This document shows positions 1 through 40,435 of a stretch of DNA of 64,000 nucleotides, one piece after another. Made by a program: the position numbers and the translations under genes. This stretch comes from Bryocella elongata (GTDB lineage: Bacteria > Acidobacteriota > Terriglobia > Terriglobales > Acidobacteriaceae). Position 1 is the stretch's first letter, and each line of letters starts with the position of its first letter. A model generated the notes under the pieces. It was given only the letters and a program-made list of their open reading frames with translations, did no database searches and was not told the origin of the DNA. The DNA lies in assembly GCF_900108185.1 (NCBI RefSeq), contig NZ_FNVA01000004.1:310001-374000 (forward strand), given 5' to 3'.

Positions 1-1102
1 CACCTCGTTCCACGTCGTTGAGCAGTTCCTGCCCATGATCGGCACGGAAGGGTAGTCTTCGATCATCACCCGAGAGTTGGCGCCGCCGGCTCTCTCGGAC
101 AACTTCGATCACGAGAGCGATCAGGTCCGCATCTCCCTCCAGGTGAGCCGCCTCGAGGAACGACTCAATCCCGCCAAGACCCGTGTCTCGTTGCGTGGAA
201 CGGAGATGCAGAAACCCAATCCCGGCAGCGAACTCCCTCAGCATGGCCAGCAAATCATTGTCGGCACGGACGCCGAGCGCTCCTGAGCAGAAGGTCAGTG
301 AGTTTGCCTCACTCTCGTACTGATTGAGAATCCAACGCAGATCATCGGCCGTACTCACCACTCTTGGCAAGCCGAGCAATGGACGAGGCGGATCATCGGG
401 ATGAATGCACAGCCTCACGCCGCACTCATCCGCTACAGGGCCAACGCACTTCAGGAAATCACGAAGGGTACCGCGGAGGTCCTCGCGCGTTAGCCCCTGA
501 TAAGCCTTTAGAGTCTCCGTGGTGCTTTCCAGTGTCAGGCGCTGATGACCTCCCGGGAGGCCATCGAGGATCGTCTGTCTCAGCGCCGTCTGCTCCTCAA
601 TGGACAACGCCGCGAAGTACTCCTTGGCTTCCGAGCATGCCTGCTCGCCCCAATCTCCGACGGCGCCCTCGCGACGCAGCATAAAAAGATCGAAGGCTGC
701 GAACGACCGGGCATCGAACCTGGTGGTATAGCCTCCGTTCGGTGCAGGCTCGCGCAGGTGAGTCCTCGTCCAGCTGAAGAGCGGCATCCAGTTGTATGCG
801 ATCGTGTGCAGTCCACAGTGGGCAAGATTGCGGATCGATTGTGCGAAGTTCTCCACGTCCTGCTGCCATCCCGCAGCGCGCGTCTTGATCCGCTCTGTTA
901 CCTCCAGGCTCTCGACGACGGTCCACTCCAGCCCCGCTGTGCGCACCTCAGCCTGGCGCTTACGAATGGCATCTGGAGGCCAGACCATACCTGCTGGTAC
1001 GTCGTGCAGGGCCGTCACGACGCCAACGGCGCCCGCCTCTCTGGCGTCTCGCAATGTGACACGGTCCTCAGGACCGAACCAACGCCACGTCTGCTCTAGC
1101 AA
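1..1102 (-). CDS. uxuA: Mannonate dehydratase, C-terminus cut by window edge
   Basis: Translating the minus strand gives an unbroken 367-residue reading frame that matches UxuA from its N-terminus (LEQTWRWFGPEDRVTL) through the central GLHTIAYNWMPLFSWTRT and CIHPDDPP segments to FCSGALGVRADND and FLHLRSTQRD. UxuA proteins are about 390-400 residues, so roughly 30 residues lie beyond position 1. The enzyme dehydrates D-mannonate to 2-keto-3-deoxygluconate in cytosolic glucuronate catabolism. The best start is a TTG at 1102-1100, preceded 8 bases upstream by GGAGAGGA; no in-frame ATG is nearby. It diverges from the IclR-like/sugar-binding regulator, which makes that protein its likely regulator (inference). 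Confidence 0.93.
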   Translation of the reverse strand, partial: MLEQTWRWFGPEDRVTLRDAREAGAVGVVTALHDVPAGMVWPPDAIRKRQAEVRTAGLEWTVVESLEVTERIKTRAAGWQQDVENFAQSIRNLAHCGLHTIAYNWMPLFSWTRTHLREPAPNGGYTTRFDARSFAAFDLFMLRREGAVGDWGEQACSEAKEYFAALSIEEQTALRQTILDGLPGGHQRLTLESTTETLKAYQGLTREDLRGTLRDFLKCVGPVADECGVRLCIHPDDPPRPLLGLPRVVSTADDLRWILNQYESEANSLTFCSGALGVRADNDLLAMLREFAAGIGFLHLRSTQRDTGLGGIESFLEAAHLEGDADLIALVIEVVRESRRRQLSGDDRRLPFRADHGQELLNDVERG

Positions 1103-24521: not shown

Positions 24522-25436
24522 ATGGCGAGGATGCTTCCGACAGAGCTGGCCGAGATCATTGGCAGCGGCCTGCTGTCATTTCCGGTGACTCACTTCACCA
24601 CGGAAAATGCGTTCGATGAGAGCGCCTACCGCTCGCACATCGGTTGGATGCTCGAGCACAAGCCCGCGGGCCTCTTCGCGGCAGGCGGGACTGGTGAGTT
24701 CTTCTCGCTCACGCTGGGTGAGTACGGCCGAGTGGTGAAAGCTGCGGTGGAAGAGAATTCCGGGCGCGTTCCTATGCTTGCCGGTTGTGGCTATGGCACG
24801 GCCATGGCGATCGAATTCGCCCACGCTGCCGAGGCTGCCGGCGCCGATGCTCTGCTCCTGTTGCCTCCGTACCTGGTGAACGCGGAGCAGTCAGGAATGA
24901 TCGCGCACGTCGAAGCCGTGTGCGCAGCGACGAAGCTGAGCGTGATTGTCTATAACCGCGACAACTTCATCCTGAACGAAGACAGCCTCGAGCAGATATG
25001 CGAGCGCTGCCCGAACCTGATTGGCTTCAAAGATGGTGTCGGCGACATCGAGATGATGACGCGGATCTACTCGCGCATGGGCGATCGGCTTGTATACGTA
25101 GGCGGCCTTCCTACGGCGGAGACCTTCGCGTTGCCGTACCTGGAGATGGGCGTGACAACCTACTCGTCGGCGATCTTCAATTTCGTTCCGAATTTCGCGA
25201 ATACCTTCTATGCCGCGGTTCGACAACGTGATCGCGAGACGGTGTACCGGATGCTGAAGGAGTTCGTGCTGCCGTACATTGCGATCCGTAACCGTAAGAA
25301 GGGATATGCGGTCTCGATCGTAAAGGCCGGAATGGCGGTTGTGGGACGCCCTGCGGGCCAGGTTCGGACGCCGTTGATGGACCTGGGGCCAGAAGAATTT
25401 GCAGCGTTGAAAACGCTCATTGGAGACAGGAGCTGA
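24522..25436 (+). CDS. kdgD: 5-dehydro-4-deoxyglucarate dehydratase
   Basis: 304 residues of the DHDPS/NAL aldolase superfamily. [15 protein letters not shown] is the family's substrate-carboxylate motif, Y144 lies in VIVYNRDN and K170 in [10 protein letters not shown] is the Schiff-base lysine. SFPVTHF near the start and the length match KdgD rather than DapA. It converts 5-keto-4-deoxyglucarate to alpha-ketoglutarate semialdehyde with loss of water and CO2. First gene of the operon; its TGA shares one base with the next ATG, so the genes are translationally coupled. Confidence 0.9.
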
Positions 25437-26782
25437 TGAGCGCCGCTCGCGTGGACTCCATTGATCGAATGACTCGCGTTCGCTATGTCATTGTCGCGAT
25501 GCTGTTCGTCGCGAGTTGCTTCAGCTATGGGGATCGAGCCGCACTCTCCGTGGCTGGCGTTGCGATGCAGAAGTCGCTGGCGATCTCGCCGCTACGTTTC
25601 GGATGGCTGTTGTCGGGCTTTGGCTGGGCTTATGTGCTCGGACAGCTGCCGTCGGGCGGACTTCTCGATCGCTATGGATCGAAGGCCGTCTATGGTGTCA
25701 GCATTATCTGCTGGTCGGTATGCGCGTTTCTCGTTGCTCTTGCGGGATATCTCCCCTTGGCCTGGGTGTTCACTGCGATCTTTGTCATCCGGTTGCTGTC
25801 GGGACTTGCACAATCGCCAGTCTTTCCCGGAAACGGCCGCATCGTTGCTGCCTGGTTTCCGGCCGCGGAGCGGGGACGGGCTTCTTCGATCTTCAATGCT
25901 TCTCAGTACTTCGCGCTTGTCGCCTTTGCGCCCCTATTTGGTTGGCTTACGTTTCATCATGGATGGCAGAGCTGCTTCTGGTTTATCGGTGGGTTTGGCC
26001 TCCTGCTCGCGTTTGCATGGAAGAAGCTCGTCTATGACGTGAAGGAACATCCGCGTATCTCCGAGGCGGAGATCAGTCATATCGAACTTGGTGGCGGCCT
26101 CGTCAATACAGGCCGATCCCCTGCGAGCGGGTTCACCGGCGGCCTCACATGGTCAATCGTTCGCCAACTGCTCAGCCAGAGGATGCTGGTGGGGATTTAC
26201 CTCGGGCAGTTCTGCATTAACACCCTCACCACGTTCTTTCTCACCTGGTTTCCAAGTTACCTGGCGGAGGCCCGTCATCTTTCCATCGTGAAGGTTGGAG
26301 TTCTTGCCGCATTGCCCGCGTTATGCGGCTCCGGTGGAGGCGTGCTGGGCGGTATTGTCTCGGACAGTCTCCTCAAGAGGGGGCGGTCGTTGAGTTTTGC
26401 GCGTAAGGCACCGATCATCCTCGGGATGTTGCTGTCCATGACAATGATCGGGTGCAACTACACCAATTCGCAGGTTGTTGTGATGGTGCTGATGTCGCTT
26501 GCGTTCTTTGGGAAGGGGTTTGGTGCGCTCGGCTGGACGGTCATAGCAGACGTATCGCCGCGCACGATGATTGGCATGAATGGCGGGGTGTTCAACTTCT
26601 TCGGCAACCTCTCCAGCATCAGCACTCCGATCATCATTGGCCTGATCAAGAGCTCAACCGGCTCCTACAATGGTGCGCTCGTCTTTGTCGGCATCACAGC
26701 ACTGATGGCGATCTTCAGCTATGTGGTGATTGTGGGCGAGATCAGGAGGGTTGATCTGGTGCCAGTGAGCGGATCACGATGA
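25436..26782 (+). CDS. MFS transporter, probable glucarate/galactarate uptake (ACS family, GudP-like)
   Basis: 448 residues with about twelve membrane helices. It resembles the anion:cation symporter branch: [14 protein letters not shown] in helix 1, [13 protein letters not shown] between helices 2 and 3, and [18 protein letters not shown] in helix 4. Family members such as GudP carry hexarates, glucuronate or related acids with protons. Its place between kdgD and gudD, overlapping both, makes aldarate uptake the natural role; the precise substrate is inferred from context. Confidence 0.87.
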
Positions 26783-28140
26783 TCGTCGATTCAATAGAGC
26801 AAGAAGGGGCACCGCGCATCACGTCGATGCGCGTGATCCCGGTTGCGGGGCAGGACAGCATGTTGCTGAACCTGAGCGGAGCACATGCCCCATGGTTCAC
26901 GAGGAATCTCCTTGTGCTGACGGACTCTGATGGCAAGACCGGCGTCGGCGAGGTTCCGGGTGGCGAGAAGATTCGCGAGGTGCTCGAGCGCTCTCGCGCG
27001 ATCGTGTTGGGATGCTCCATCGCTCACTTCCAGGCAGTGATCCAGAAGGTGCGGACGGCCTTCGCTGACCTCGATGAAGGTGGCCGAGGTGTGCAGACCT
27101 TTGACCTTCGGGTGACGATCCATGCCGTTACTGCCATCGAGGCCGCGATGTTGGACCTGCTCGGGCAGTTCGTGCAGCTTCCAGTAGCGGCGCTGCTTGG
27201 CGAAGGACAGGTGCGATCAATGGTGCAGGTGCTTGGATACCTCTTCTACATCGGAGATTGCAAGCGCAGTGATGATGGATATCGTGACGAGTCCGGTGCT
27301 GACGATCCCTGGTTGCAACTTCGAAATATAGAGGCGCTGACCGCCGATGCGATTGTGAAGCTAGCCGAGGCCGCACAGACACGCTATGGCTTCCACGACT
27401 TCAAACTAAAAGGCGGCGTACTGGACGGGGTCGCGGAGATCGAGGCGGTGACGGCGCTCTCCGAGAGGTTTCCGCACGCACGGATCACGCTTGATCCCAA
27501 CGGAGCGTGGTCATTGGATGAGGCAGTGCGCTTGTGCAGCGGGAAGAGCCGTGTGTTGAGCTACGCCGAAGACCCTTGTGGTGCAGAGCATGGATTCTCC
27601 GGCAGGGAAATCATGGCCGAGTTTCGCAAAGCGACCGGCCTTCCTACTGCTACGAACATGATTGCGACAGACTGGCGGCAGCTGCACCATGCGCTGCAGT
27701 TGAATGCGGTCGACATCCCGCTCGCAGATCCACATTTCTGGACGATGCAGGGATCGGTGAGGGTCGCGCAGGTATGCCGCGACTGGGGACTGACGTGGGG
27801 TTCGCATTCCAACAATCACTTCGACGTCTCGCTGGCGATGTTTACTCACGTTGCAGCAGCCGCTCCAGGACGCGTAACGGCGATCGATACGCATTGGATC
27901 TGGCAGGACGGCCAGCGACTCACCACTGAGCCATTGCAGATCAAAGACGGAGCCATTGAAGTTCCGACTCGTCCCGGGTTGGGGATTGATCTTGACCTGG
28001 AGCAAATTGAGGCGGCCCATGCGTCGTACCTACGGTTGGGACTGAGCGGGCGCGACGATGCCCGTGGCATGCAATGCCTCATGCCTGGATGGGTCTTCGA
28101 TGCAAAGCGTCCGTGCCTGCTCCCACGAGTCATCCGATAG
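26779..28140 (+). CDS. gudD: Glucarate dehydratase
   Basis: 453 residues, enolase superfamily. All residues expected for GudD are visible with a +4 offset from the E. coli enzyme: K209 and K211 in FKLKGG, metal ligands D239 (TLDPNGAW), E264 (YAEDP) and N293 (ATNM), and H343 in [10 protein letters not shown]. It dehydrates D-glucarate (and L-idarate) to 5-keto-4-deoxyglucarate, the KdgD substrate. The start overlaps the transporter gene by four bases. Confidence 0.94.
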
Positions 28141-28175
28141 CTGGCACGACCCAGAGCTACATGATGGAGGTCGAA

Positions 28176-29768
28176 ATGAGCGAGGGACAAATCGGGGATT
28201 CACAGATGAAGTTGAGAGGGAGAATCGACCCAAATGAACCTCGATATGTCCGCGTCCATCCGAATGACAACGTTGCAATCATTGTGAACGCTGGTGGTCT
28301 GGTCGCGGGAACTCGGTTTTCCTCGGGGCTCGTTCTCACAGACGACGTTCCAGAGGCCCACAAGGTCGCGTTATCTGCCATCGATGAAGGTAGTCCTATC
28401 GTGCGCTACGGTGTGGTCATCGGACACGCGGCACGCGCGATTCACGAAGGGGACTGGGTGATGGAGGATGACCTCGTGGCTCCGCCCGCACCAGACCTCG
28501 ATAGCGTACCGCTGGCGACGCAGACTCCCGCATCGCTGCCACCGCTGGAGGGCTACACCTTCCAGGGCTATCGCAACGCCGACGGCACGGTGGGGACGCG
28601 CAATATCCTTGGCATCAGTACAACGGTGCAATGCGTCGCGGCGACGGTTGGCTATGCAGTGCGGCGAATCAAGGCAGAGCTCCTGCCACGGTATCCGAAC
28701 GTCGACGACGTCATTGCGATCACGCATAACTACGGTTGCGGTGTCGCGATGAACGCGCCGGGCGCCGAGATTCCGGTGCGAACACTTCGCAACTTGAGTC
28801 TCAACCCGAACCTTGGAGGAGCGCCGATGGTGGCAAGCCTCGGTTGCGAGAAGTTGCAGCCCGCGCAGATGCTCCCCGCGAGCCTGCTCCCGATCCTCCA
28901 GGAGAATCCCTATGTCGTTCGTCTTCAGGATGAGCAGCACATGGGGTTCGAGGATATGGTCGCTGCCTTGATGGAGCTTGCTGAACGACGGTTGATCGCC
29001 CTGAACGACCGCAGGCGCGTGACATGCAGCGCTTCGGGTCTTGTCGTAGGGATGCAGTGCGGAGGAAGCGATGCGTTTTCGGGAGTCACTGCAAATCCGG
29101 CTGTCGGGTTCGCATCCGACCTCCTAGTCCGAGCTGGCGCGACGGTCTTGTTCTCGGAGGTCACGGAAGTAAGGGATGCGGTGCATCTCCTGACGGCTCG
29201 TGCCGCGGATCACGACGTTGCCTTGAGGCTGGTCCAGGAGATGCGCTGGTATGATGAGTACCTTTCGCGAGGTTCTGCGGACCGCAGCGCGAATCCTTCG
29301 CCTGGAAACAAGAAGGGCGGTCTGGCGAACATCGTTGAGAAGGCCATGGGTTCAGTCGCGAAGGCCGGGGTCAGTCCACTAACCGCCGTCTCTGGCCCAG
29401 GGGAACGCGTCACGACAAAAGGACTCGTCTTCGCGGCGACGCCTGCGAGTGACTTCATCTGTGGGACGCTTCAGTTGGCGGCCGGAATGAACATGCACGT
29501 CTTTACCACTGGCAGGGGCACGCCTTACGGTCTGGCCATGGTTCCGGTGATCAAGGTGGCAACGCGTACCTCCCTGGCAGAGCGGTGGCACGACCTGATC
29601 GATGTTGACGCAGGTCGGATTGCGACTGGCGATGCCACGATTGAGGAGATCGGTTGGGAGATCTTCCACATGATCCTGCGGTCAGCCAGCGGGGAGCACG
29701 AAACGTGGGCGGAGCACTGGGGGCTGCACAACGAATACGCACTCTTCAATCCCGGGCCTGTGACTTAG
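28176..29768 (+). CDS. garD: Galactarate dehydratase
   Basis: 530 residues, close to GarD over the whole length: [20 protein letters not shown] with the N-terminal SAF-like domain, [57 protein letters not shown] and [19 protein letters not shown]. It dehydrates galactarate to the same 5-keto-4-deoxyglucarate made by GudD. The ATG at 28176 has GGAGG five bases upstream and leaves 35 bases after gudD; an earlier frame opening inside gudD gives no homologous sequence. Confidence 0.95.
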
Positions 29769-30162
29769 TCGATCGCGGCACGTTCGTCGCTTGTTGTCAG
29801 TGACGCGCGTCACATAACCAATGGCAAATGTGCGGCGCTGCATCTCCACATCCGACATATATCGAGTGATTGTGACGTGTGTGCGTGGCGTCTTCTCGAC
29901 CACGAGTCGATACAGACGGCTGGATACCGCTATGGCCGCGGAAAAGTGCAAGTAATAAAGATTCCCACCTAGACGCAATTTGCCTGCAGCCGATAGAGAC
30001 GCGAGATCGCATCGCAGGATTGCGTGTGCGTCGCGTCGCGTTGTTTCATTGCCGAACAACATCCCATAGCGGGTTGTAATTCTGTCGCACCTCGCGTTGA
30101 GCTGCTCTCGCGACTCGAGCGTGCACAAGTTTGGATGAATCATTCGTGGGGCTGGAGGAACT
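29769..30162. other. Intergenic region before the chemosensory cluster
   Basis: 394 bases without a credible reading frame. It contains the sigma-28-like promoter at 29969-29996 and a GGAGG ribosome site at 30154-30158. No terminator for the garD operon with a T-run was seen. Confidence 0.6.
29969..29996 (+). promoter_or_regulatory. Sigma-28 (FliA)-like promoter
   Basis: CTAGA at 29969-29973, fifteen bases, then GCCGATAG at 29989-29996. The consensus for flagellar/chemotaxis sigma factor is CTAAA, fifteen bases, GCCGATAA, so each box differs at one position. It stands 167 bases upstream of the first gene of the chemosensory cluster. Confidence 0.5.
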
Positions 30163-31893
30163 GTGGGGTTGTTGGTGCGCCGAAAGACCGGGGACGACAC
30201 ACGCACTCATGTTGCGTCCGCCCTTGGCCATCTGCAGCGCATCATGGGTAGGTGCGAAAGAGCGATTGCCGATCTGTCGCAATCCTTTCAGGCGCTGGCT
30301 CAAGACTGCGATCAATTGATGGCGAATACGCGGGAACTAGTGACTGCGACGCAGTCAAGCTGCGCGAGAGAGGTGCTCCCTTCTTTGCGGCGAAACTACA
30401 GCGATTGCGAACGGGTTCTCCAACTTCGCCTGGAAGCCGCCGGTGGTGTCGCCGAGCTCCTCACACGGGAGCAGGAGTTACTCGAAGAACTTGAGAGGCC
30501 GTCGCGCGCACAGCAATCGACGTCACGAACGGCGAGAATCCTCGCGGTCATGCTCCGCATTGAGATAGCCCGACTTGGCAGGGACGGAGAGGGCTTCACC
30601 TATATGTCGGGGGAGCTCGAACAAGCCTCATACAGGATCTCTCAAGGGGTGGATGTTCTTCAGGAGATGATCCGGGCGCGCCATGCGAGCACGCCCGCGA
30701 GAAAGCTTCGTGTCGATGAATCGAGAGCACAAGCGCGCAAGAACCTCGCTCTCATCGAGAGTGGAAGGGAATTGGCCCTGGATCGGGCCGACCGCGCGCT
30801 GAATGATTTTGAGAGGCTTCCTCTCTCTCTTGATGAGTGTGTGCAGGAGGCTTCGACAAACATTGCTCGCGTCACCTCAGCCGTTCAGATGCAGGACCTG
30901 ACGCGGCAACAGACCGAGCATGTGGAGGCTGTGCTGCAAGCAGTTATGGGAGCACCTGGCTCATCAAATCTTCATCCCACGCACGTGGCAGCAGTTCTGC
31001 GTGTGCAACTGGAACAGATGGAGAACATCCGACGAACGACGTCAAATTGGTTTGAGGAGATTGAGCAGTGTGTATCGTCGATCCTTCGCCTGGGTGACAC
31101 AGAGCTCCTTGCAATCATGGAACAGATCGTGTGCCTCCAAAACTCCATCGAAGAGCAGGGACTATGGGTGGCTAAGTTTGAGGGGGAGTTTGAGCAACAC
31201 GATCGCGTGAACGAGGAAGAGCTCAGCGAATTTGAATCGATGATGTCGATGGTTCGCGGTCATCTGGACCAATCGCAGAAGACCAGCGAACATCTTCAAC
31301 TGCTCAACCTGAACTCGATGGTTGCAGCACACAACGTTGGATCACAGGCCGCCTCGGTGCTCCAAATTACGAATAGCATCAGTCGCCTCGCAACCGATTG
31401 GCGGGGGCTGACCCTGCGGTCGGTGCAATCGATGGAGCACATGATTACCGCCGCGACGTCCCGGGGCGACCGTGCTCGTGAAGCTTCTGACAGCACACGA
31501 ACGGCCATAGCAGCAATGCAGCAGGAGAGCAAGTCAACCCTGGATGCTCTTCGGAGCGTGTCAGAGCTCGGTGTGCGGTGCCAACATGAAGGGCAGCAAT
31601 CGGTGCTGCAGATGCAGGGGCGCGTTAACCAGGTCAATCAGAGCATGCGGGAGCTCCGGAATGTGCTCGATGGAATCGTCGCTGCTTCAGAAGATATTGC
31701 GCATGCCGTGAAGCTCTCGGAAAGTCGTCATCCGTTGCAGCTCCCTGAATCAGACCGGCGCGAGATTGAAGCGTATTGCGAAGGTTCTTATACAAGCGAG
31801 ATTGAGCGGCACGTGATGCGAGCGGTGTTATTCGGTGAAGATATTCCACCTCCGGTTCCTAGCGCCAACGAAGGGGCCATAGAGCTCTTCTAA
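30163..31893 (+). CDS. Soluble MCP-like coiled-coil protein with CheZ-like DxxxQ motif
   Basis: 576 residues, almost wholly helical, no signal peptide or membrane span. Two stretches resemble degenerate receptor signalling tips: residues 125-158 (RIEIARLGRDGEGF) and 379-412 (LLNLNSMVAAHNVGSQAASV). Each is followed 105-120 residues later by a related segment: VQMQDLTRQQTEHV (241-254) and LQMQGRVNQVNQSM (482-495), implying an internal duplication. D245-L-T-R-Q249 equals the CheZ phosphatase signature D-x-x-x-Q; the second copy has lost the Asp. GTG start at 30163 with GGAGG four bases before it. It leads the che cluster, which has no CheC, CheX or normal CheZ, so dephosphorylation of CheY is a plausible role (inference). 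Confidence 0.7.
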   Translation: MGLLVRRKTGDDTRTHVASALGHLQRIMGRCERAIADLSQSFQALAQDCDQLMANTRELVTATQSSCAREVLPSLRRNYSDCERVLQLRLEAAGGVAELLTREQELLEELERPSRAQQSTSRTARILAVMLRIEIARLGRDGEGFTYMSGELEQASYRISQGVDVLQEMIRARHASTPARKLRVDESRAQARKNLALIESGRELALDRADRALNDFERLPLSLDECVQEASTNIARVTSAVQMQDLTRQQTEHVEAVLQAVMGAPGSSNLHPTHVAAVLRVQLEQMENIRRTTSNWFEEIEQCVSSILRLGDTELLAIMEQIVCLQNSIEEQGLWVAKFEGEFEQHDRVNEEELSEFESMMSMVRGHLDQSQKTSEHLQLLNLNSMVAAHNVGSQAASVLQITNSISRLATDWRGLTLRSVQSMEHMITAATSRGDRAREASDSTRTAIAAMQQESKSTLDALRSVSELGVRCQHEGQQSVLQMQGRVNQVNQSMRELRNVLDGIVAASEDIAHAVKLSESRHPLQLPESDRREIEAYCEGSYTSEIERHVMRAVLFGEDIPPPVPSANEGAIELF

Positions 31894-31936: not shown

Positions 31937-32305
31937 ATGATGATGAAACGAATTCTGGCAGTCGATGATTCGTCGAGCGTGCGCGAGATGATCAGCTTCA
32001 CGCTGAAGAAGGCGGGCTATGACGTGGTTCAAGCCAATGACGGACAGGATGGCCTGCAGCGCAGCGCTTCCTCCAAGTTCGACCTGGTGATTACCGACCT
32101 CAATATGCCCCGCATGGATGGGATTCAGATGATTACGGCCATGCGTAAGCAACAAGGGTACGGCTTCGTCCCGATCCTGATGCTTACGACGGAATCACAG
32201 CCCGAAAAGAAGGCAGCCGGTCGCAATGCGGGGGCCACCGGCTGGATTGTAAAGCCCTTTAATCCTGAACAGCTCGTTTCTGTCATTCAGAAGCTAGTTC
32301 GCTAA
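31937..32305 (+). CDS. cheY: CheY-type single-domain response regulator
   Basis: 122 residues, receiver domain only. Acidic pocket D10-D11 (AVDDSSSVREM), phosphoacceptor D54 (LVITDLNMPRMDG), the conserved Thr in MLTTES and the Lys-Pro in WIVKPFNPEQL are all present. It should receive phosphate from CheA and carry the output. Its immediate neighbour upstream has the CheZ-like motif. Three adjacent Met codons leave the exact start open by two residues. Confidence 0.93.
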   Translation: MMMKRILAVDDSSSVREMISFTLKKAGYDVVQANDGQDGLQRSASSKFDLVITDLNMPRMDGIQMITAMRKQQGYGFVPILMLTTESQPEKKAAGRNAGATGWIVKPFNPEQLVSVIQKLVR

Positions 32306-32427: not shown

Positions 32428-32760
32428 ATGTCGCTCGAATGGAGTCGCGAAGACGGCGTATCTCAAGTCAGTCTCTCCGATCAAGCAGATCTATCGATTG
32501 CAACGGAGCTGAAAGCGGCATTGCTGCAGGCTTTTGCTCCGCCAGCTACTGCGCTGACGATTGACCTCCGCAATGTCTCTGAGCTGCACATCACCATCAT
32601 TCAGCTGGTATGGGTCGCAGCGCGGGAGGCTTGTGCGAAGAAGGTCGCATTCGACCTTCTTCGTCCCAACGACACGGATGTCATCAACTCACTTATCGAT
32701 TGTGGCCTGACACTTCCTTCGAACAACGCACCCGAACCCGCGCAGGAGCCTGCCGCATGA
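32428..32760 (+). CDS. Small STAS-domain protein within the che cluster
   Basis: 110 residues. Strand/helix pattern fits an STAS (anti-anti-sigma) fold: DQADLSIATELKAALLQAF, then LTIDLRNVSELHITIIQLVWVA. The phosphorylated D-S-[ST] of SpoIIAA-like proteins reads H-I-T here, so regulation by Ser phosphorylation is doubtful although a Thr remains. Its stop overlaps the cheA start (ATGA), so it is made together with CheA. STAS proteins of this kind are found in chemosensory clusters; the partner is unknown. Confidence 0.75.
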   Translation: MSLEWSREDGVSQVSLSDQADLSIATELKAALLQAFAPPATALTIDLRNVSELHITIIQLVWVAAREACAKKVAFDLLRPNDTDVINSLIDCGLTLPSNNAPEPAQEPAA

Positions 32761-34982
32761 GCGTCGTCGCGATTCAGGCCCCCGGAAGTGATCAATTTCG
32801 CGCAGCCTTTCGCGAAGAGGCCGTCGAGCTCCTGCGCGACCTTGAAGCGTCCCTGCTCAATCTCCAGGATAGTAACGAGGACCCCGAAGCCGTTGCCGGA
32901 ATCTTCCGGAACCTGCACACCATCAAGGGTTCCGGCGCCATGTTTGGCTTTACGATTCTGGCCAGCTTTACACATCACCTGGAAAACGCTTTTGACGCGG
33001 TGCGGGATGGCCGGGTGACGTTGAGTCGTGAGCTCATCGATCTGGCGTTGCAGGGCATCGACCACATGCGGGGTCTGATCCTCAATGCTCATGCCGGTGA
33101 CCGCCGACCGCGCATGGCGCTCGTCGACAAGGTCACGCGGCTTATAGCTTCCGGTACGCCCGGCACGAGCGTTGTGGAAGGAGAAGCAACTCCTACCCCG
33201 CAGGTGGTGCCGTTTGGCGATTCACGAGTGTGGGGCATTTCGTTTACTCCCGGGCCAGACATGATGCGTTTCGGATCCGATCCGGCATTGCTGATCCGGG
33301 AGCTTGCAGGCATGGGGCAGCTCGAGGCACGAGCGGATCTGTCACAACTCCCGTCGCTCACAGAGATCGATCCCGAGCGCTGCTACGCTTCATGGGAGCT
33401 GGCTCTTTATACGGGCGCCGATGAAAACGTGATTCGTGACGTATTCATCTTTGTTGAGGATCTATGCTTTCTTCGCATCTGTTCGGAGGATATCGAGGAA
33501 GCTGTGGCCGTGCCAGCCGTCGCTCAGACCGTGCCTGATTCTCCGGAGCCCAGGGCAGAGGTTGATCCTATCGTGCGTGTGGACGCTTCAGCTTCTCCTG
33601 CAGCGATCAAGGACCGTGGTCCTGTTGAGGCGGGATCGACGTCGATGTCCCCTCAACAGGCCAAGGAGGCCAAGTCATACGACGGCGGAGACAGGGGAGG
33701 GATTCGCGTCGCTGCTTCCAAGCTCGATCAACTCATCAATCTCGTTGGAGAGCTTGTCACTGTGCAGGCGCGGCTCAGTGAACTGGCATTGCGTCGCGAT
33801 GACAATGAGATCAGCTCAGTGGCGGAAGAGGTTGAACGACTCACGTCTTCATTGCGCGAGAGCTCGATGAATGTGCGGATGATGCCGGTCCGGAACACCT
33901 TCGAGCGCTTCCGCAGGCTGGTCTATGACCTCGCGCGAGACCTGAGCAAGAGTGTGAATCTGACGATTGAAGGCGCCGAGACTGAGCTCGATAAGACTGT
34001 ACTCGACCAGCTCAGCGATCCCTTGCTTCACCTCATCCGCAACAGCATGGACCACGGGCTGGAGACGACGGGCGATCGGCTGCGGGCTGGCAAATCGGAA
34101 CAAGGGCACCTGCATCTGAGCGCTAGGCACTCCGGGGCAAGTGTGTTGATTGGTGTATCGGATGATGGCCGTGGTATTGACATCGCGCGGGTGCGACAGC
34201 GCGGAATTGAGCGGGGCCTTATCTCGGCGGATGCTGTTCTTAGCGAAAGCGAGATCTTCAGTCTTATCTTCGAGCCTGGCTTCTCGACAGCAGTTGAAGT
34301 AACAGATCTTTCCGGCCGTGGCGTTGGCATGGACGTGGTGCGGCGCAACATCGAGAAGCTGCGTGGGAACATCGATGTCGCGAGCAAGCCGGGCAAGGGA
34401 ACGACGGTCACTCTGCGAATCCCGCTCACTCTGGCGATTATTGATGGCCTTCTCGTTACCATCGGTGATCAGTACTTCGTCCTTCCGCTTGCACACACAC
34501 TCGAGTGCATCGAACTCAGCCGAGCCGAGATCGATCGGTCGGAGGGCAAACAGCTCATCAACGTTCGTGGCGAACTCATCGCCTACATACGGCTGCGCGA
34601 GTACTTCGGTATCGAGGGTGATCTGCAGGAGTTTGAGCAGGTGATGCTGGTCGACACCGATTCTGGCCGCTTCGGTCTCGTGGTGGACCGGGTCCTTGGC
34701 GATTGCCAGACGATGGTGAAGTCGCTGGGCCATCTCTATCAGAAGATCAACGAGCTCTCGGGTGCGACCATCCTCGGAAACGGTTGCGTGGCGCTGATCC
34801 TCGACCCTCACCGTCTCGTGCAGGAATGCATTCGGTCTCTGCACCCTTCAGCACGCGCGGTAGCACGAGCCCCTGCTGGGGCACGCGCGAGCCTCCGGGC
34901 GGGTCCTGGTTCTGACATCGCTGACGCTAATTCGAACAAGATCGTTCCCATTTCAAGATCATCAGCGCCTGTGGGCGCGTAG
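32757..34982 (+). CDS. cheA: Chemotaxis histidine kinase CheA
   Basis: 741 residues. P1 phosphotransfer domain with H54 in FRNLHTIKGSGAMFGF. A region around residues 155-245 (VVPFGDSRVWGISFTPGPDM) is a P2-like regulator-binding part. P3 dimerisation (KLDQLINLVGELVTVQARLS), P4 ATPase (LLHLIRNSMDHGLE, GVSDDGRGID, GRGVGMDVVRRNIEKL) and P5 CheW-like domain (YFVLPLAHTLECIEL onward) follow. It autophosphorylates under receptor control and passes phosphate to CheY and CheB. Start set at ATG 32757, overlapping the STAS gene; the longer open frame upstream is not homologous. Confidence 0.95.
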   Translation: MSVVAIQAPGSDQFRAAFREEAVELLRDLEASLLNLQDSNEDPEAVAGIFRNLHTIKGSGAMFGFTILASFTHHLENAFDAVRDGRVTLSRELIDLALQGIDHMRGLILNAHAGDRRPRMALVDKVTRLIASGTPGTSVVEGEATPTPQVVPFGDSRVWGISFTPGPDMMRFGSDPALLIRELAGMGQLEARADLSQLPSLTEIDPERCYASWELALYTGADENVIRDVFIFVEDLCFLRICSEDIEEAVAVPAVAQTVPDSPEPRAEVDPIVRVDASASPAAIKDRGPVEAGSTSMSPQQAKEAKSYDGGDRGGIRVAASKLDQLINLVGELVTVQARLSELALRRDDNEISSVAEEVERLTSSLRESSMNVRMMPVRNTFERFRRLVYDLARDLSKSVNLTIEGAETELDKTVLDQLSDPLLHLIRNSMDHGLETTGDRLRAGKSEQGHLHLSARHSGASVLIGVSDDGRGIDIARVRQRGIERGLISADAVLSESEIFSLIFEPGFSTAVEVTDLSGRGVGMDVVRRNIEKLRGNIDVASKPGKGTTVTLRIPLTLAIIDGLLVTIGDQYFVLPLAHTLECIELSRAEIDRSEGKQLINVRGELIAYIRLREYFGIEGDLQEFEQVMLVDTDSGRFGLVVDRVLGDCQTMVKSLGHLYQKINELSGATILGNGCVALILDPHRLVQECIRSLHPSARAVARAPAGARASLRAGPGSDIADANSNKIVPISRSSAPVGA

Positions 34983-34991
34983 GAGACCATC

Positions 34992-37433
34992 ATGAGCCAC
35001 GCAGTTCAGGCATCCATCCCCAAGGCAACCCTTCCTCCCCGTCGGCCAGCTTCCGCTATCAGTGCAAAAAAGAAGAAGGCGGACTCACACGCAATTGAAG
35101 CGCGATATAAGTCAATGCTGGAAAACAGCCCCGCCAATATCATGCTGGCAGACCTTGACTACAACATCATCTACATCAATCCCGCATCGCTGCGTACGCT
35201 CAAGTCGATCGAGCAGCACCTGCCTGTGACGGCGGATAACGTCGTTGGCTCCAATATCGACATCTTCCACAAGTTCCCTGGTCGCGTTCGCCAGCTTCTG
35301 GCGGATCCGCGAAACCTGCCTCATATCGCGAATGTCCAGGTTGGGCCGGAGTATGCCCGCCTTGAAGTGATCGCGGTGTATGACGAAGCCGGTAATTGGG
35401 ACAGCGTTATGGTCAGCTGGGATGTTGTTACGGAGCGGCTGCGCCTTGAGGCGGTGGCCAAGTCCAATGCAGAGACCATTGCAAGCTTTACCGAGTTCAC
35501 GAAGCAGCTCAACGAGATGTCGCACCAGCACGATCTCGGCGACATTGATGTGTGCCTCACTCCGGAGTCATTCAAAGGCGACTTGAAGGCAGTTGCCGAG
35601 GCTGTCAACGGGATGGTCAATGGCCACATTGCGGTGAAGAAGAAGGCGATGGCCTGCGTGGCAGAGTTTGGCCGCGGCAACTTCGAGGCCCCGCTTGAAA
35701 AGTTCCCGGGCAAGAAGGCTTTCATCAACGACACCGTCGAGCGCCTGCGCGACAACGTGAAGTCGTTCATCTCCGAGATGAAGCATATGTCGGACGAACA
35801 CGACGCCGGTGATATCGACGTCTTCATCCCGGCGGACCGCTTCGAGGGCTCCTACCGCGTGATGGCCGAGGGCGTCAACGGCATGGTCAGCGGCCACATC
35901 CAGGTGAAGAAGAAGGCGATGGCTTGCGTGGCGGAGTTTGGTCGCGGCAACTTCGAAGCTCCGCTGGACAAGTTCCCGGGCAAGAAGGCGTTCATCAATG
36001 ACACCATCGAACAGGTCCGCAGCAATCTCAAGGGCCTCATCGTCGATACCGATGATCTGGTGAAGGCCGCTCTTGCAGGACGCCTTGAGACTCGTGCTGA
36101 TGTAGCGCGGCATGAAGGGGATTTCCGCAAGATCATCCTGGGCATTAACAACACATTGGATGCGGTGATTGGACCGCTCAGCGTGGCGGCGAAGTACGTG
36201 GAACAGCTCTCACGCGGCCAGATGCCTGCGTTGATAACCGATACCTATCATGGCGATTTCAATACGTTGAAGGAGAGCCTGAATCGTCTCATCCACGCGA
36301 TGCAGGATGTGACGAATGTCGCCGAAAAGATGGCGACCGGTGATCTGACGGTTAGCGTTACGCTGAGGTCTCAGGAAGACAACCTCATGCGCGCGTTGAA
36401 GACCATGATCGCTTCCATGCAGGAGATCTCCGTGGCCGCCGAGCGGATTGCGGAAGGGGATCTCACCGTGAGTGTGACCCCACGTTCGGCAGAAGATCGG
36501 CTGATGCATGCGTTGCAGTCGATGGTCGGTGGACTTACCCGCACTGTGGGCGAGGTACGATTCATTGCGAGTGAAGTCGCTGCGGCGAGCCAATCGATCT
36601 CGACAGCATCGGTCCAGGTGTCCAAGGGTGCAAGTTCCCAGGCTGCGGCTGCCGAAGAGGCTTCGTCTTCGATGGAGCAGATGGTTTCCAACATCAAGCA
36701 GAACGCAGATAACGCACTGCAGACGGACAAGATCGCGAACAAGAGCTCCAAGGATGCGCAGGAGAGCGGCAAGAGCGTCAATGAGGCAGTGGCCGCAATC
36801 AAGGAGATCGCGAACAAGATCTCAATCATTGAAGAGATTGCTCGCCAGACCAACCTGCTCGCTCTGAATGCGGCGATTGAAGCCGCCCGCGCCGGAGAAC
36901 ACGGCAGAGGATTCGCCGTGGTCGCCGCGGAGGTGCGCAAGCTGGCCGAGCGCAGCCAGAAGGCGGCAGGAGAGATCAATCAGCTCTCGACCGCGACGTT
37001 GAAGGTCAGCGAGAAGTCCGGTGAGATGCTCACGCGGCTTGTCCCGGACATCCAGCGTACAGCCGAACTGGTGCAGGAGATCTCTGCTGCCAGCCGCGAG
37101 CAGGATACAGGCGCCGAGCAGATCAACAAGGCTCTGCAGCAGCTCGAACAGGTGATCCAGCACAATGCTTCAGCGGCTGAAGAGATGGCTTCGACCACTG
37201 AGGAATTGACCGGCCAGGCCGAGAACCTTGTAAGTGCGCTCTCGTTCTTTCGGACCGGTAGCGAAAATGCCGCTCCAGTGAGGACTCCGGCACGCACTGC
37301 AGTTGCCAAGACTGCGGCGCCGGTGGAGAAGCGCCACGCCGGCCACGCTCAGAACAGCAGTTCGCGGGGCGGATTTTCGCTGCGAATGAATGATCGCACA
37401 GACAGCCTTGACGGCGAGTTCGAGCGCTACTAG
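34992..37433 (+). CDS. Cytosolic methyl-accepting chemotaxis protein, PAS plus poly-HAMP
   Basis: 813 residues without a signal peptide or membrane helix. A PAS-like sensor covers ~42-155 ([20 protein letters not shown]). Next come HAMP-like modules including two 90-residue near-copies (176-265, 266-355) and later [10 protein letters not shown] and [14 protein letters not shown] pairs. The signalling hairpin tip is canonical ([38 protein letters not shown]). The last five residues EFERY fit the x-[FYWH]-x-x-[FYWH] CheR/CheB docking pentapeptide. It probably senses an internal cue such as redox or a small ligand and controls CheA through CheW. Confidence 0.92.
35517..36056 (+). repeat. Tandem 270-bp intragenic repeat in the MCP gene
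   Basis: Copy one 35517-35786, copy two 35787-36056. Both encode MS..HDxGDIDV, VNGMV, [20 protein letters not shown] and [11 protein letters not shown]. The core at 35622-35731 and 35892-36001 is strongly similar at nucleotide level, including long identical runs, so the duplication is recent or kept homogeneous by conversion. Confidence 0.85.
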
Positions 37434-37502: not shown

Positions 37503-38006
37503 ATGAGTATGGCTGAGATGACCGATATGCGGCAGTACCTGACCTTTCGCCTGGGCAGCGAGATCTTCGCGATCGATGTAGCCAAGGTGCGTGAGGTGCT
37601 GGACCTGACAGCGATCACGCCGATCCCGAGGACGCCTGAACTTATGGCTGGGGTCATTAACCTTCGTGGCAGCGTGGTACCCGTTGTTGACTTGAGACAG
37701 TGCCTCGACATGGCGAAGACGGTAAGCACACGCAACACCTGCATCGTTGTGGTGGAGGTTGTGCTGGACGGTGAGTCGACGATCATTGGAGCACTGGCCG
37801 ATTCCGTCGAGGAGGTCATCGATCTCGACTCGGCGCAGATTCAGCCGGCGCCTCGCATTGGCATGCAGGTCCGGGTCGACTTTATCCGCGGAATGGGCAA
37901 GCGCGAGAACAGCTTCATCATGATCCTGGACATCGATCGGGTCTTCACTGCCGAAGAACTGCGCGGCACGTCCACTGAAAATACCGCTACGGAAGCGGCC
38001 GCTTAA
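37503..38006 (+). CDS. cheW: Chemotaxis coupling protein CheW
   Basis: 167 residues, a single CheW domain. QYLTFRLGSEIFAIDVAKVREVL opens the first beta-barrel, MAGVINLRGSVVPVVDLR is the family signature, and GALADSVEEVIDLD and FIRGMGKRENSFIMILDID complete the second. It links receptor tips to CheA P5. A short Ala/Thr-rich tail ends the protein. AGGAG precedes the ATG; 69 bases separate it from the receptor gene. Confidence 0.95.
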   Translation: MSMAEMTDMRQYLTFRLGSEIFAIDVAKVREVLDLTAITPIPRTPELMAGVINLRGSVVPVVDLRQCLDMAKTVSTRNTCIVVVEVVLDGESTIIGALADSVEEVIDLDSAQIQPAPRIGMQVRVDFIRGMGKRENSFIMILDIDRVFTAEELRGTSTENTATEAAA

Positions 38007-38014
38007 GGAGCTTC

Positions 38015-38857
38015 ATGATGGGGGCATTGGGCGTTGCGCATGAAGACCGGCTTACGCGGCGCGACTTCGACCGTGTGCGCGAGCTTGTCCGTGAGCAGTG
38101 TGGAATCCAGCTTGGTCCTGACAAGCACACGATGGTCGAGGTCCGCCTCAAGCGACGACTGCGTGCTCTAGGGCATGCGACCTATACGGATTATTGTGCG
38201 CATTTGTTTGAGAGCAGATCGAAGGCTGAGCTTGTCTCGTTGATCGACGTGATCACGACGAACAAGACGGACTTCTTTCGCGAGTCCAACCACTTTGACT
38301 TCCTCACTGAACGAGTTCTTCCGGAGCTCAACCGTCGAGCAGCGCCGATGCTGATCTGGAGTGCGGCTTGCTCCAGCGGAGAAGAGCCGTACACGATGGC
38401 GATGGTGCTGAGCGAATTTGCGGAAAAGCATGAATCCTTCCGCTTCAGCATTCTCGCCACGGATATTTCGACCGAAGTGCTGGAGCGGGCCGAGACTGCT
38501 GTTTATACGAAGCAGGTCGTAGAACCGATATCCGCTTCGATGCAGCGCAAGTATCTAATGCGCAGCCGCGATCGAAGCAACGATCGCGTTCGGATTGTTC
38601 CAGAACTGCGGTCGAAGGTTGAGTTTCGCCGGCTGAACTTCATGGATGAGGCCTACGGCCTTCCGGTGGCGCCTCAGGTCATCTTCTGCCGCAACGCGCT
38701 CATTTACTTTGACCGTGTGACTCAGGAGAGCATCGTTCGGAAGCTCATTCGTGAGCTTGAACCGGGCGGATACCTGTTCATTGGACATTCCGAGACCCTG
38801 AGTCAAATGGATCTTCCCGTCACAGCTGTCGCATCAACGATCTATAGGAAGATCTAA
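38015..38857 (+). CDS. cheR: Chemotaxis receptor methyltransferase CheR
   Basis: 280 residues. The N-terminal helical domain includes VEVRLKRRLRALG and TTNKTDFFRES; the SAM-binding domain has IWSAACSSGEEPYTMAM and ILATDIS, followed by FCRNALIYFD and GYLFIGHSETL. It methylates receptor glutamates using S-adenosylmethionine. The neighbouring receptor ends in a docking pentapeptide, so tethered methylation is likely. Its stop shares one base with the cheD start. Confidence 0.95.
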   Translation: MMGALGVAHEDRLTRRDFDRVRELVREQCGIQLGPDKHTMVEVRLKRRLRALGHATYTDYCAHLFESRSKAELVSLIDVITTNKTDFFRESNHFDFLTERVLPELNRRAAPMLIWSAACSSGEEPYTMAMVLSEFAEKHESFRFSILATDISTEVLERAETAVYTKQVVEPISASMQRKYLMRSRDRSNDRVRIVPELRSKVEFRRLNFMDEAYGLPVAPQVIFCRNALIYFDRVTQESIVRKLIRELEPGGYLFIGHSETLSQMDLPVTAVASTIYRKI

Positions 38858-39375
38858 TGGCAGTACGCCATGAGTTCACGTTGCAGCCCGGCGAGTCGAG
38901 ACTCGTCCGAACTCCCTCTGTGTTGAAGACGGTGCTGGGCTCGTGTGCCGGGGTGACCTTTCGCGTGCAAAGGCTTGGGCTTGGAGCGATGTGCCACCCC
39001 ATGTTGCCTACGATTCGGCCCGGCCGGGAAAGTTCGGAGACAGTCTTGACCCGTTACGTGGATCTCGCGCTCAAGGGCATGATCCATCGGCTCGAGAAGC
39101 TTGGAGCTCAACGGGGAGAGATTGAAGTCAAGCTCTTTGGCTGTTGTGACGTGCTTGACTTCGACGTCAACCGCATCACCGTCGGGCGGATGAACGCCGA
39201 GATGGCAATGAAGGTGTTGTCTGAGGAAGGTGTCGTGTTGGCTGCTCGTCAGACCGGCGGCCCGGTAGGAATGTACATATATTTCACGACGGATTCCGGA
39301 GAGGTCTTGTTGCGCCGATTGGCCCCTCTGGAAACTGGACTGCGAAAAGAGGCAAAGCTTGCTGATGGACGGTAA
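38857..39375 (+). CDS. cheD: Chemoreceptor glutamine deamidase CheD
   Basis: 172 residues. The catalytic Cys is C30 in [11 protein letters not shown] and the His is H47 in GAMCHPMLP. The family's FGCCDVL and [13 protein letters not shown] segments are present, along with [21 protein letters not shown]. It deamidates receptor glutamines to methylatable glutamates. In Bacillus-type systems CheD also activates CheC, but no cheC is found here. The start overlaps cheR (TAATG) and the end overlaps cheB. Confidence 0.92.
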
Positions 39376-40435
39376 GAAACGTCAGGTTCGAGTTCTGGTC
39401 GTCGATGACTCGGCAGTTGTACGTCAGGTTCTGAGCAGCCTGCTCGAGAGCGATCCCGACATTCGGGTGATCGCTACAGCTTCAGATCCGTTCGTCGCGG
39501 CGGAGCGAATCGCGGAGGAGATTCCCGATGTGATTACGTTGGACATAGAGATGCCCCGTATGGACGGGCTCACCTTCCTGCGCCGCATCATGGAGCAGAG
39601 GCCAATCCCTGTTGTGATCTGCTCATCGTTGGCGGCGGAGGGTGCGCACAGTACCCTGGAGGCAATGAGCGCCGGCGCTGTCGACATCATCACTAAGCCG
39701 CGGATCGGTACTCGGCAGTACCTTGAGGAGTCGCGCGTACAGATATGCGAGGTCGTGAAGGCCGCAGCGCAATCCAAACCACGCGCTCGCGCCACCGCAC
39801 ATGCAGTGGAACCGAAGTTGACTGCCGATGTAATCCTTGCGCCGTCGCAACACTCTATGGCGGAGACCACAGAGAAGGTCATCGTGGTGGGTGCATCGAC
39901 CGGGGGGACCGAAGCGCTTCGTGAGCTCCTCGAGCCATTACCAGAAAACGCTCCTGGCATCGTCATCGTCCAGCACATGCCGGAGCTCTTCACGCGCAGC
40001 TTCGCGCAGCGTCTCAATGGGCTTTGCGCGATTGAGGTGAAGGAGGCCGAGAGCAACGATACCGTGTTGCCTGGCCGCGCGTTGATTGCTCCGGGGAATC
40101 ATCACATGCTGCTTCGTCGCAGCGGGGCGCGTTACTTCGTGGAGATCAAGGACGGCCCATTGGTGTGCCGGCATCGGCCATCTGTGGACGTTCTCTTTCG
40201 TTCGGCCGCACGTTACGCCGGCCGCAACGCGGTTGGTGTGATCCTGACCGGCATGGGAGACGACGGAGCCCGCGGCATGCTCGAGATGAAGCAGGCGGGC
40301 TCGTATAACATCGCTCAGGACGAGGCGAGCTCCGTGGTTTACGGTATGCCAAAGGAAGCTCTCCGACTTGGTGGAGTCGACAAAGTTCTGTCATTGGAGC
40401 AGATCCCGTCTGCCTTACTCCCATTCCGCGCTTAG
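39359..40435 (+). CDS. cheB: Chemotaxis methylesterase response regulator CheB
   Basis: 358 residues: receiver domain with D62 ([12 protein letters not shown]), linker ~120-170, then the methylesterase with the S180-H206-D302 triad ([21 protein letters not shown]). It removes receptor methyl groups when phosphorylated by CheA. The start is either TTG 39359, with GAGG about seven bases upstream, or ATG 39365; both lie inside the end of cheD, so coupling is strong. Last gene of the cluster, convergent to the histidine-kinase operon. Confidence 0.95.

Follow-up and report, generated by a model that had tools for sequence, protein, structure and literature searches.

The window analysed here, a 64,000-nt stretch of the 5.67 Mb genome of Bryocella elongata, raises the question of what a receptor-like protein with a CheZ-type motif does at the head of a chemotaxis gene cluster. 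The cluster opens with an ORF of 576 amino acids (30163..31893; coordinates written with two dots are on the forward strand), which starts with GTG 4 nt after a GGAGG ribosome-binding site (30154..30158). It is followed by cheY (31937..32305), a STAS-like gene below the Pfam cut-off (32428..32760), cheA (32757..34982), a cytoplasmic-type MCP with PAS and several HAMP domains (34992..37433), cheW (37503..38006), cheR (38015..38857), cheD (38857..39375) and cheB (39359..40435). Pfam scans of seven cluster proteins, the 576-aa protein included, returned receiver, sub-threshold STAS, CheA, MCP, CheW and CheD domains and no CheC, CheX or CheZ; cheR and cheB were named from sequence. The ORF is as an earlier note had described it, with QMQDLTRQ at residues 242-249 and QMQGRVNQ at residues 483-490. 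The window cheD shares 17 bases with the listed cheB ORF, pointing either to translational coupling or to a later cheB start. Upstream, the region 24522-29768 appears by eye to hold a sugar-acid catabolic set (dihydrodipicolinate-synthase-like, MFS transporter, enolase-superfamily and altronate-dehydratase-like genes).

The cluster had been taken to lack CheC, CheX and a canonical CheZ. This holds for the seven scanned proteins, and for CheZ and CheC it extends to the whole genome, in which neither gave a match; one CheX-domain protein is encoded elsewhere in the genome (G000:C4:737051-737326, L084; E 5.3e-9), and its ELTN fits the CheX signature, ExxN. CheX is present in 18 of the 20 searched genomes that carry a relative of the window gene, and 14 of 48 such genomes also hold an over-cut-off CheZ, so the family protein need not be the only phosphatase of its cell. 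A study of Geobacter describes genomes without CheZ and states that a CheZ-independent mechanism is needed there (PMC2577667). From the evidence below, the window protein is probably the missing off-switch of clusters of this kind.

Within the window's order the gene is patchy. Of 200 genomes, 7 gave a match at E<=0.001. Besides the genome of the window itself, these yielded three full-length orthologues (25-30% identity) and three weak hits over part of the length, at least two of which are ordinary receptors. A contig scan with two search patterns, one of them TRQQxEHV, gave 47 loci from Acidobacteria, Geobacteraceae/Desulfuromonadaceae, Desulfovibrio-type bacteria and other Proteobacteria, the closest named relatives being acidobacterial MAGs. 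Because TRQQxEHV served as a search pattern, Q249 is biased in this set and D245 is unbiased. A set of 38 proteins was found by BLAST or whole-length profiles, independently of any motif search, and comprises 27 gammaproteobacterial proteins, seven from the window's phylum, the three orthologues and the window protein. The gammaproteobacterial search returned 30 loci, which became 27 after removal of L107 (identical to the query, L043), L110 (internal stop in the match) and L130. The phylum search returned 30 rows including L001, the window itself; the five best others (L055-L059) and then L078 and L081 were used, L070 was taken at first and removed when it proved to be an ordinary receptor, and the other 21 rows were left aside. 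L078 and L081 are not an unbiased draw, the tail of L081 having been known before its selection. For work on the double-hairpin form we used 40 sequences, leaving out L022 (truncated), L038 (a near copy of L037) and six single-hairpin loci. Starts of the relatives were set at the first ATG of the open frame, with the whole frame used for L012 and L059.

Several features of the window protein point to a receptor ancestry. Its sole Pfam match is a receptor domain at residues 125-243, with 17.3 bits against an MCP (PF00015) cut-off of 34.6 bits, and in the PDB it matches a receptor fragment best (E 7.5e-4). Among the relatives, MCP matches were obtained for 37 of the 40 double-hairpin members at E<=0.01 (best 7.2e-24) and for all 12 single-hairpin members at E<=0.05 (best 3.5e-29). 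The window protein has no strongly hydrophobic stretch, its top 19-residue mean hydropathy being 1.23; top values are 0.8-1.7 in double-hairpin members and 1.5-2.9 in 28 single-hairpin ones. Single-hairpin members are about 340-600 aa long and mostly have a clear receptor tip. Two segments align with receptor tips, at residues 124-152 (30532..30618) and 379-410 (31297..31392), and both are eroded, reading MLRIEIARLGR and NSMVAAHNVGS at the equivalents of the tip motif. The two halves of the window protein alone have no significant BLAST match to each other (best E 2.0). Family-level profiles from the 40 double-hairpin sequences align half 1 with half 2 at 98.6% (E 6e-16, 226 columns); part of this score is coiled-coil composition, since a reversed profile, run as a control, still scores 48% (E 1.8e-4). 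Compared singly, the halves match ordinary receptors at 97.9% and 97.5%, and the single-hairpin family at 99.8% each. The two degenerate tip segments proposed previously are thus borne out at the family level.

The second half of that proposal, which paired QMQDLTRQ with QMQGRVNQ as related helices, fails. In the profile alignment QMQGRVNQ (31609..31632) lies 13 positions upstream of the place equivalent to the first motif, and the orthologues keep only its MQ (MQGT, MQST, MQTH), so we discard it as an Asp-less second active site. Against CheZ, half 1 scores 69% and half 2 scores 7%. In a YTSEIER segment (residues 543-549; 31789..31809), Y543 and E548 are invariant in 40/40 double-hairpin members. 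An AlphaFold model of the window protein, made with 39 relatives, consists of long helices throughout (mean pLDDT 82.9, pTM 0.61) with a one-residue break at 244. In the model of the single-hairpin L043 (pLDDT 75.7, pTM 0.35) the intact tip lies inside one continuous helix, so the secondary-structure strings cannot separate hairpins from straight helices and we draw nothing from them. Foldseek with the predicted structure gave zero matches at E<=0.001, VIA-align matched chiefly generic coiled coils and helical toxins, and the absence of CheZ among the best 50 matches listed for each is uninformative.

The segment that stands out is the helix QMQDLTRQQTEHV (residues 242-254; 30886..30924). Q242, D245 (30895-30897) and Q249 (30907-30909) are identical in 38/38 relatives, and in 36/36 when L078 and L081 are set aside, while T247 and R248 vary (QFEDIVRQ, QFQDRVGQ and similar). 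Among 366 scored columns, the tip residue F145 alone outranks these three in conservation. In the four full-length proteins of the order the densest invariant block falls here as well (A240, Q242, D245, T247, R248, Q249, Q250, E252, H253 and V254), and D[ILMV]TRQQ occurs in 47/47 contig-scan loci, a count in which Q249 is biased by the search pattern. Loss of D245 and Q249 among orthologues had been named as a result that would speak against the motif; both residues are invariant there. The position of the motif is fixed too: as QxxDxxxQ, its Asp falls +116 to +118 from the tip in 27/27 gammaproteobacterial members. For comparison we took 32 ordinary receptors from the loci, 31 after one proved to have no recognisable tip, and QxxDxxxQ at +105..125 occurs in 0/31. 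When the motif was allowed anywhere 85-150 residues past the tip, 22/31 had it, in every case as a separate motif at +94 that aligns elsewhere. This is the ordinary receptors' conserved QQLDQVIQQ, which holds a DxxxQ of its own (e.g., L027 6833-8614), and for this reason DxxxQ alone proves nothing. Taken with its conservation and its fixed position, the D245-x-x-x-Q249 helix is not, by sequence, a chance pattern.

The earlier note had read this DxxxQ as the active-site signature of CheZ and proposed a profile comparison. Against 16 CheZ proteins of the family-bearing genomes, hhalign gave 92.5% for 12 single-hairpin members, 84% for 33 members found by profile and 49% for the 40 double-hairpin sequences, with the motif in register with the CheZ Asp and Gln: the alignment sets FQDITRQ on FQDLTGQ. 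Controls ranged from 0.4% (ordinary receptors) to 0.6-8.4% (reversed profiles). The reading of QMQDLTRQ as a CheZ-type DxxxQ is upheld, in that a D-x-x-x-Q on the active-site helix, the catalytic feature of CheZ, is recovered both by conservation and by profile register. E. coli CheZ reads AQDFQDLTGQVIKRM at its active-site helix. With the motif masked, the similarity to CheZ falls to 2.3%; since the resemblance, though specific, is confined to the active-site helix, convergence is possible and homology cannot be separated from it.

With hmmscan, the Pfam CheZ model matches 6/12 single-hairpin members (best E 3.4e-8) and 4/40 double-hairpin ones (best 9.5e-6), and the NCBIfam model Phos_CheZ matches 8/12 single-hairpin members (best 8.3e-6). 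Run over the 48 genomes, the CheZ Pfam model picks out seven family genes at per-genome E values of 3.1e-6 to 4.3e-4, all sub-cut-off; two more matches, likewise under the cut-off (E 1.1e-4 and 8.8e-4), fall at the opposite end of the model, and the second of them is the ordinary receptor L102. Coiled-coil proteins draw chance profile matches: Baculo_PEP_C, an unrelated coiled-coil model, matches 9/40 double-hairpin members (best E 2.3e-7). In Pfam the window protein does not match CheZ even at E<=1 and so falls short of the whole-protein cut-off of PF04344, 30.7 bits. Like CheZ, it has the in-register D-x-x-x-Q helix, a site beside cheY and a C-terminal peptide with a hydrophobic end; unlike CheZ, it is below the family score, about twice as long and equipped with receptor-type tips, its similarity stops outside the active-site helix, and its family ends in VELF where CheZ ends in DDLLDSLGF. 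Because the family score was tested and lies above what the protein attains, we do not file the family as CheZ.

The neighbourhood of the gene points to CheY. A cheY-like ORF (>=44% identity) lies <=700 bp away in 35/48 loci, and some che gene lies <=3 kb away in 47/48, the exception, L022, being at a contig end; these counts are based on identity to the window's own Che proteins. A cheY is close by in 7/7 members from the window's phylum. The order cheY-family gene-cheA is seen in L047, L048 and L051, and the family gene follows cheR-cheB-cheD in L036, L043 and L046. In the 27 gammaproteobacterial loci, inspected with 1.5-kb flanks, cheB lies just upstream in ten and, weakly, in an eleventh (L133), a cheY at 54-62% identity is present in six, and no che gene is visible in five. 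The window's CheY has Asn and Glu at the positions of E. coli N59 and E89, and the chosen CheYs have them in 51/51 cases, as against 3 and 5 of 52 aligned (of 61) other receivers in the loci. This signature fits CheZ-type chemistry but, as these CheYs were picked by their identity, may be no more than the mark of one CheY clade.

We therefore arrive, with moderate confidence, at a candidate function: the window protein would be a receptor-derived CheY-P phosphatase working like CheZ, with the adjacent CheY as its proposed substrate. CheZ and CheC/CheX are described as inserting two side chains into the active site of the receiver, an amide that orients a water and an acid that forms a bridge to the active-site lysine (PMC3035606). 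By analogy, Q249 would enter the CheY active site and orient water to attack the phospho-aspartate, as Gln147 of CheZ does, and D245 would contact the active-site lysine like the acidic residue of CheZ. The C-terminal peptide may dock the protein on CheY or another Che protein, and the hairpins may let the protein self-associate or bring it to the array; single-hairpin relatives whose tip is intact could act in the same way while seated in the array. The phosphatase prediction rests on two residues. Of the earlier idea, a receptor-like protein with a CheZ-type D/Q pair acting on the adjacent CheY, the main part has gained from conservation, CheZ profile similarity and synteny and has lost its second, Asp-less copy; the suggestion of a phosphate-sink controller gained no evidence.

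The alternative that survives best, though we think it unlikely, is that the D/Q helix and the tail bind CheY-P or another receiver and that the protein is a scaffold, buffer or output effector devoid of catalysis. It accommodates the same conservation and synteny, receptor-type hairpins suit a scaffold and the genome's CheX could do the dephosphorylation, but it fails to explain why D and Q are strictly kept at a spacing of four while the residues between them vary, and why they are in register with the catalytic pair of CheZ. Less probable still is a structural role in the array, in which the protein would space or bridge arrays and the D/Q helix would be a packing motif. The model for it would be DosM, described as a receptor with two signalling domains that spans two baseplates in an F9 system (PMC7534058) and which, compared by description only, shares with the window protein two receptor signalling hairpins in one cytoplasmic chain; unlike DosM as described, the window protein has eroded tips, a CheZ-like helix and a terminal peptide, and the motif is equally invariant in single-hairpin members. 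That the motif is no more than the altered C-terminal end of the signalling domain of an ordinary receptor, with no CheY role, is very improbable. The alignment of ordinary receptors with the single-hairpin family does run as far as the beginning of the motif helix, where 'NFF' at their end lies opposite QFQD, and 22/31 have a DxxxQ, but that one sits at +94 rather than +116, none of the 31 has QxxDxxxQ at the family position, and ordinary receptors show no similarity to CheZ (0.4%).

The putative phosphatase ends in AIELF (residues 572-576; 31876..31890), a candidate docking peptide. Ends of the form [VI]x[LFI]F occur in 38/38 relatives, and a slightly wider pattern is found in all 40 double-hairpin sequences and in 0/31 ordinary receptors. 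The loci contain 2,808 ORFs of >=100 aa, and [VI][EDTSKV][LFI]F is the end of 88 of them; those not recognised as family genes are six CheD rows (L107 repeating L043) and one unassigned ORF. The CheD proteins ending in [VI][ED]LF are L036 7248-7862, L043 7258-7866, L046 4418-5059, L052 16600-17265, L117 2-343 and L140 6100-6744, and in L036, L043, L046, L117 and L140 they lie beside or near a family gene. The peptide is missing from 23/29 CheD rows and from the window's own CheD. The tail looks like a docking peptide common to the family and some CheD proteins, which suggests a docking site common to CheD and the family protein; as these CheD proteins end in the same peptide, it need not be a CheY tether. 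Taken together, the relatives constitute a real class, recognised by sequence: proteins of receptor descent that combine a CheZ-type active-site helix with a putative terminal docking peptide. A search of open-licence PubMed Central papers, by listings and passages, gave no report of a receptor-borne CheZ-like site.

Two described systems come close to this class. CheT of Sinorhizobium meliloti, a DXXXQ protein outside CheZ, is reported to dephosphorylate one of two CheYs (PMC12654446); compared by description only, it resembles the window protein in having DXXXQ outside CheZ and differs in not being receptor-derived in that account. The second is the McpA-like receptors. As described, mcpA-like genes sit behind cheB in stage-1 F7 clusters, clusters of stages 1 and 2 have cheY and no cheZ within the cluster, and the McpA terminal pentapeptide has valine at position 2 in place of W (PMC7184735); the McpA C-terminus is called strikingly conserved, with a role that is important yet unclear (Ortega et al. 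2020, PMC7184735). In a Vibrio cluster with F7 order, the McpA-like place is taken by L140 7788-8984, whose product has the tip, carries QFTDIIVQ at +116 and terminates in EVELF, by which the gene is assigned to the family; the CheD of that cluster ends in DDDVELF. The likeness to McpA-like proteins of the PA0180/VCA1088 type rests on this gene and on the published description, in which the Val fits xVxLF, not on the PA0180 and VCA1088 sequences. The Vibrio relative has a single intact hairpin and a hydrophobic stretch near its N-terminus, whereas the window protein is cytoplasmic and both of its hairpins are eroded; the window gene precedes cheY rather than lying behind cheB, and the AIELF end of its product was compared with the McpA pentapeptide V by description only. 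The gene order in L140 is an aer2-like receptor (ending in EEWEEF), cheR, cheD, cheB, the family gene and then a receiver-PP2C-type gene.

A broader reading can be offered tentatively, and we regard it as rather doubtful as a whole: that a receptor-derived class spanning phyla, McpA-like proteins included, supplies the CheY-P phosphatases where che systems have no dedicated CheZ, that CheZ is descended from a receptor of this kind whose tip was lost, and that the VELF-type peptide recruits the phosphatase and, in some clusters, the deamidase CheD to one hub. The weight given to this and to the phosphatase reading allows for chance matches of the kind seen with the CheZ model and Baculo_PEP_C. 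If these receptor-like proteins are the phosphatase, a single polypeptide would join a sensing scaffold to signal termination. The conservation of the McpA C-terminus and the puzzle of what McpA-like receptors do would then have an explanation open to test, and CheZ would have a possible origin. Two named members of the family are annotated in the databases as 'methyl-accepting chemotaxis protein', WP_149505502.1 of Sphaerotilus sulfidivorans, with QFQDINRQ and the end PKIELF, and WP_157926100.1 of Methylosinus trichosporium OB3b, with QFQDIVRQ and the end PRIELF.
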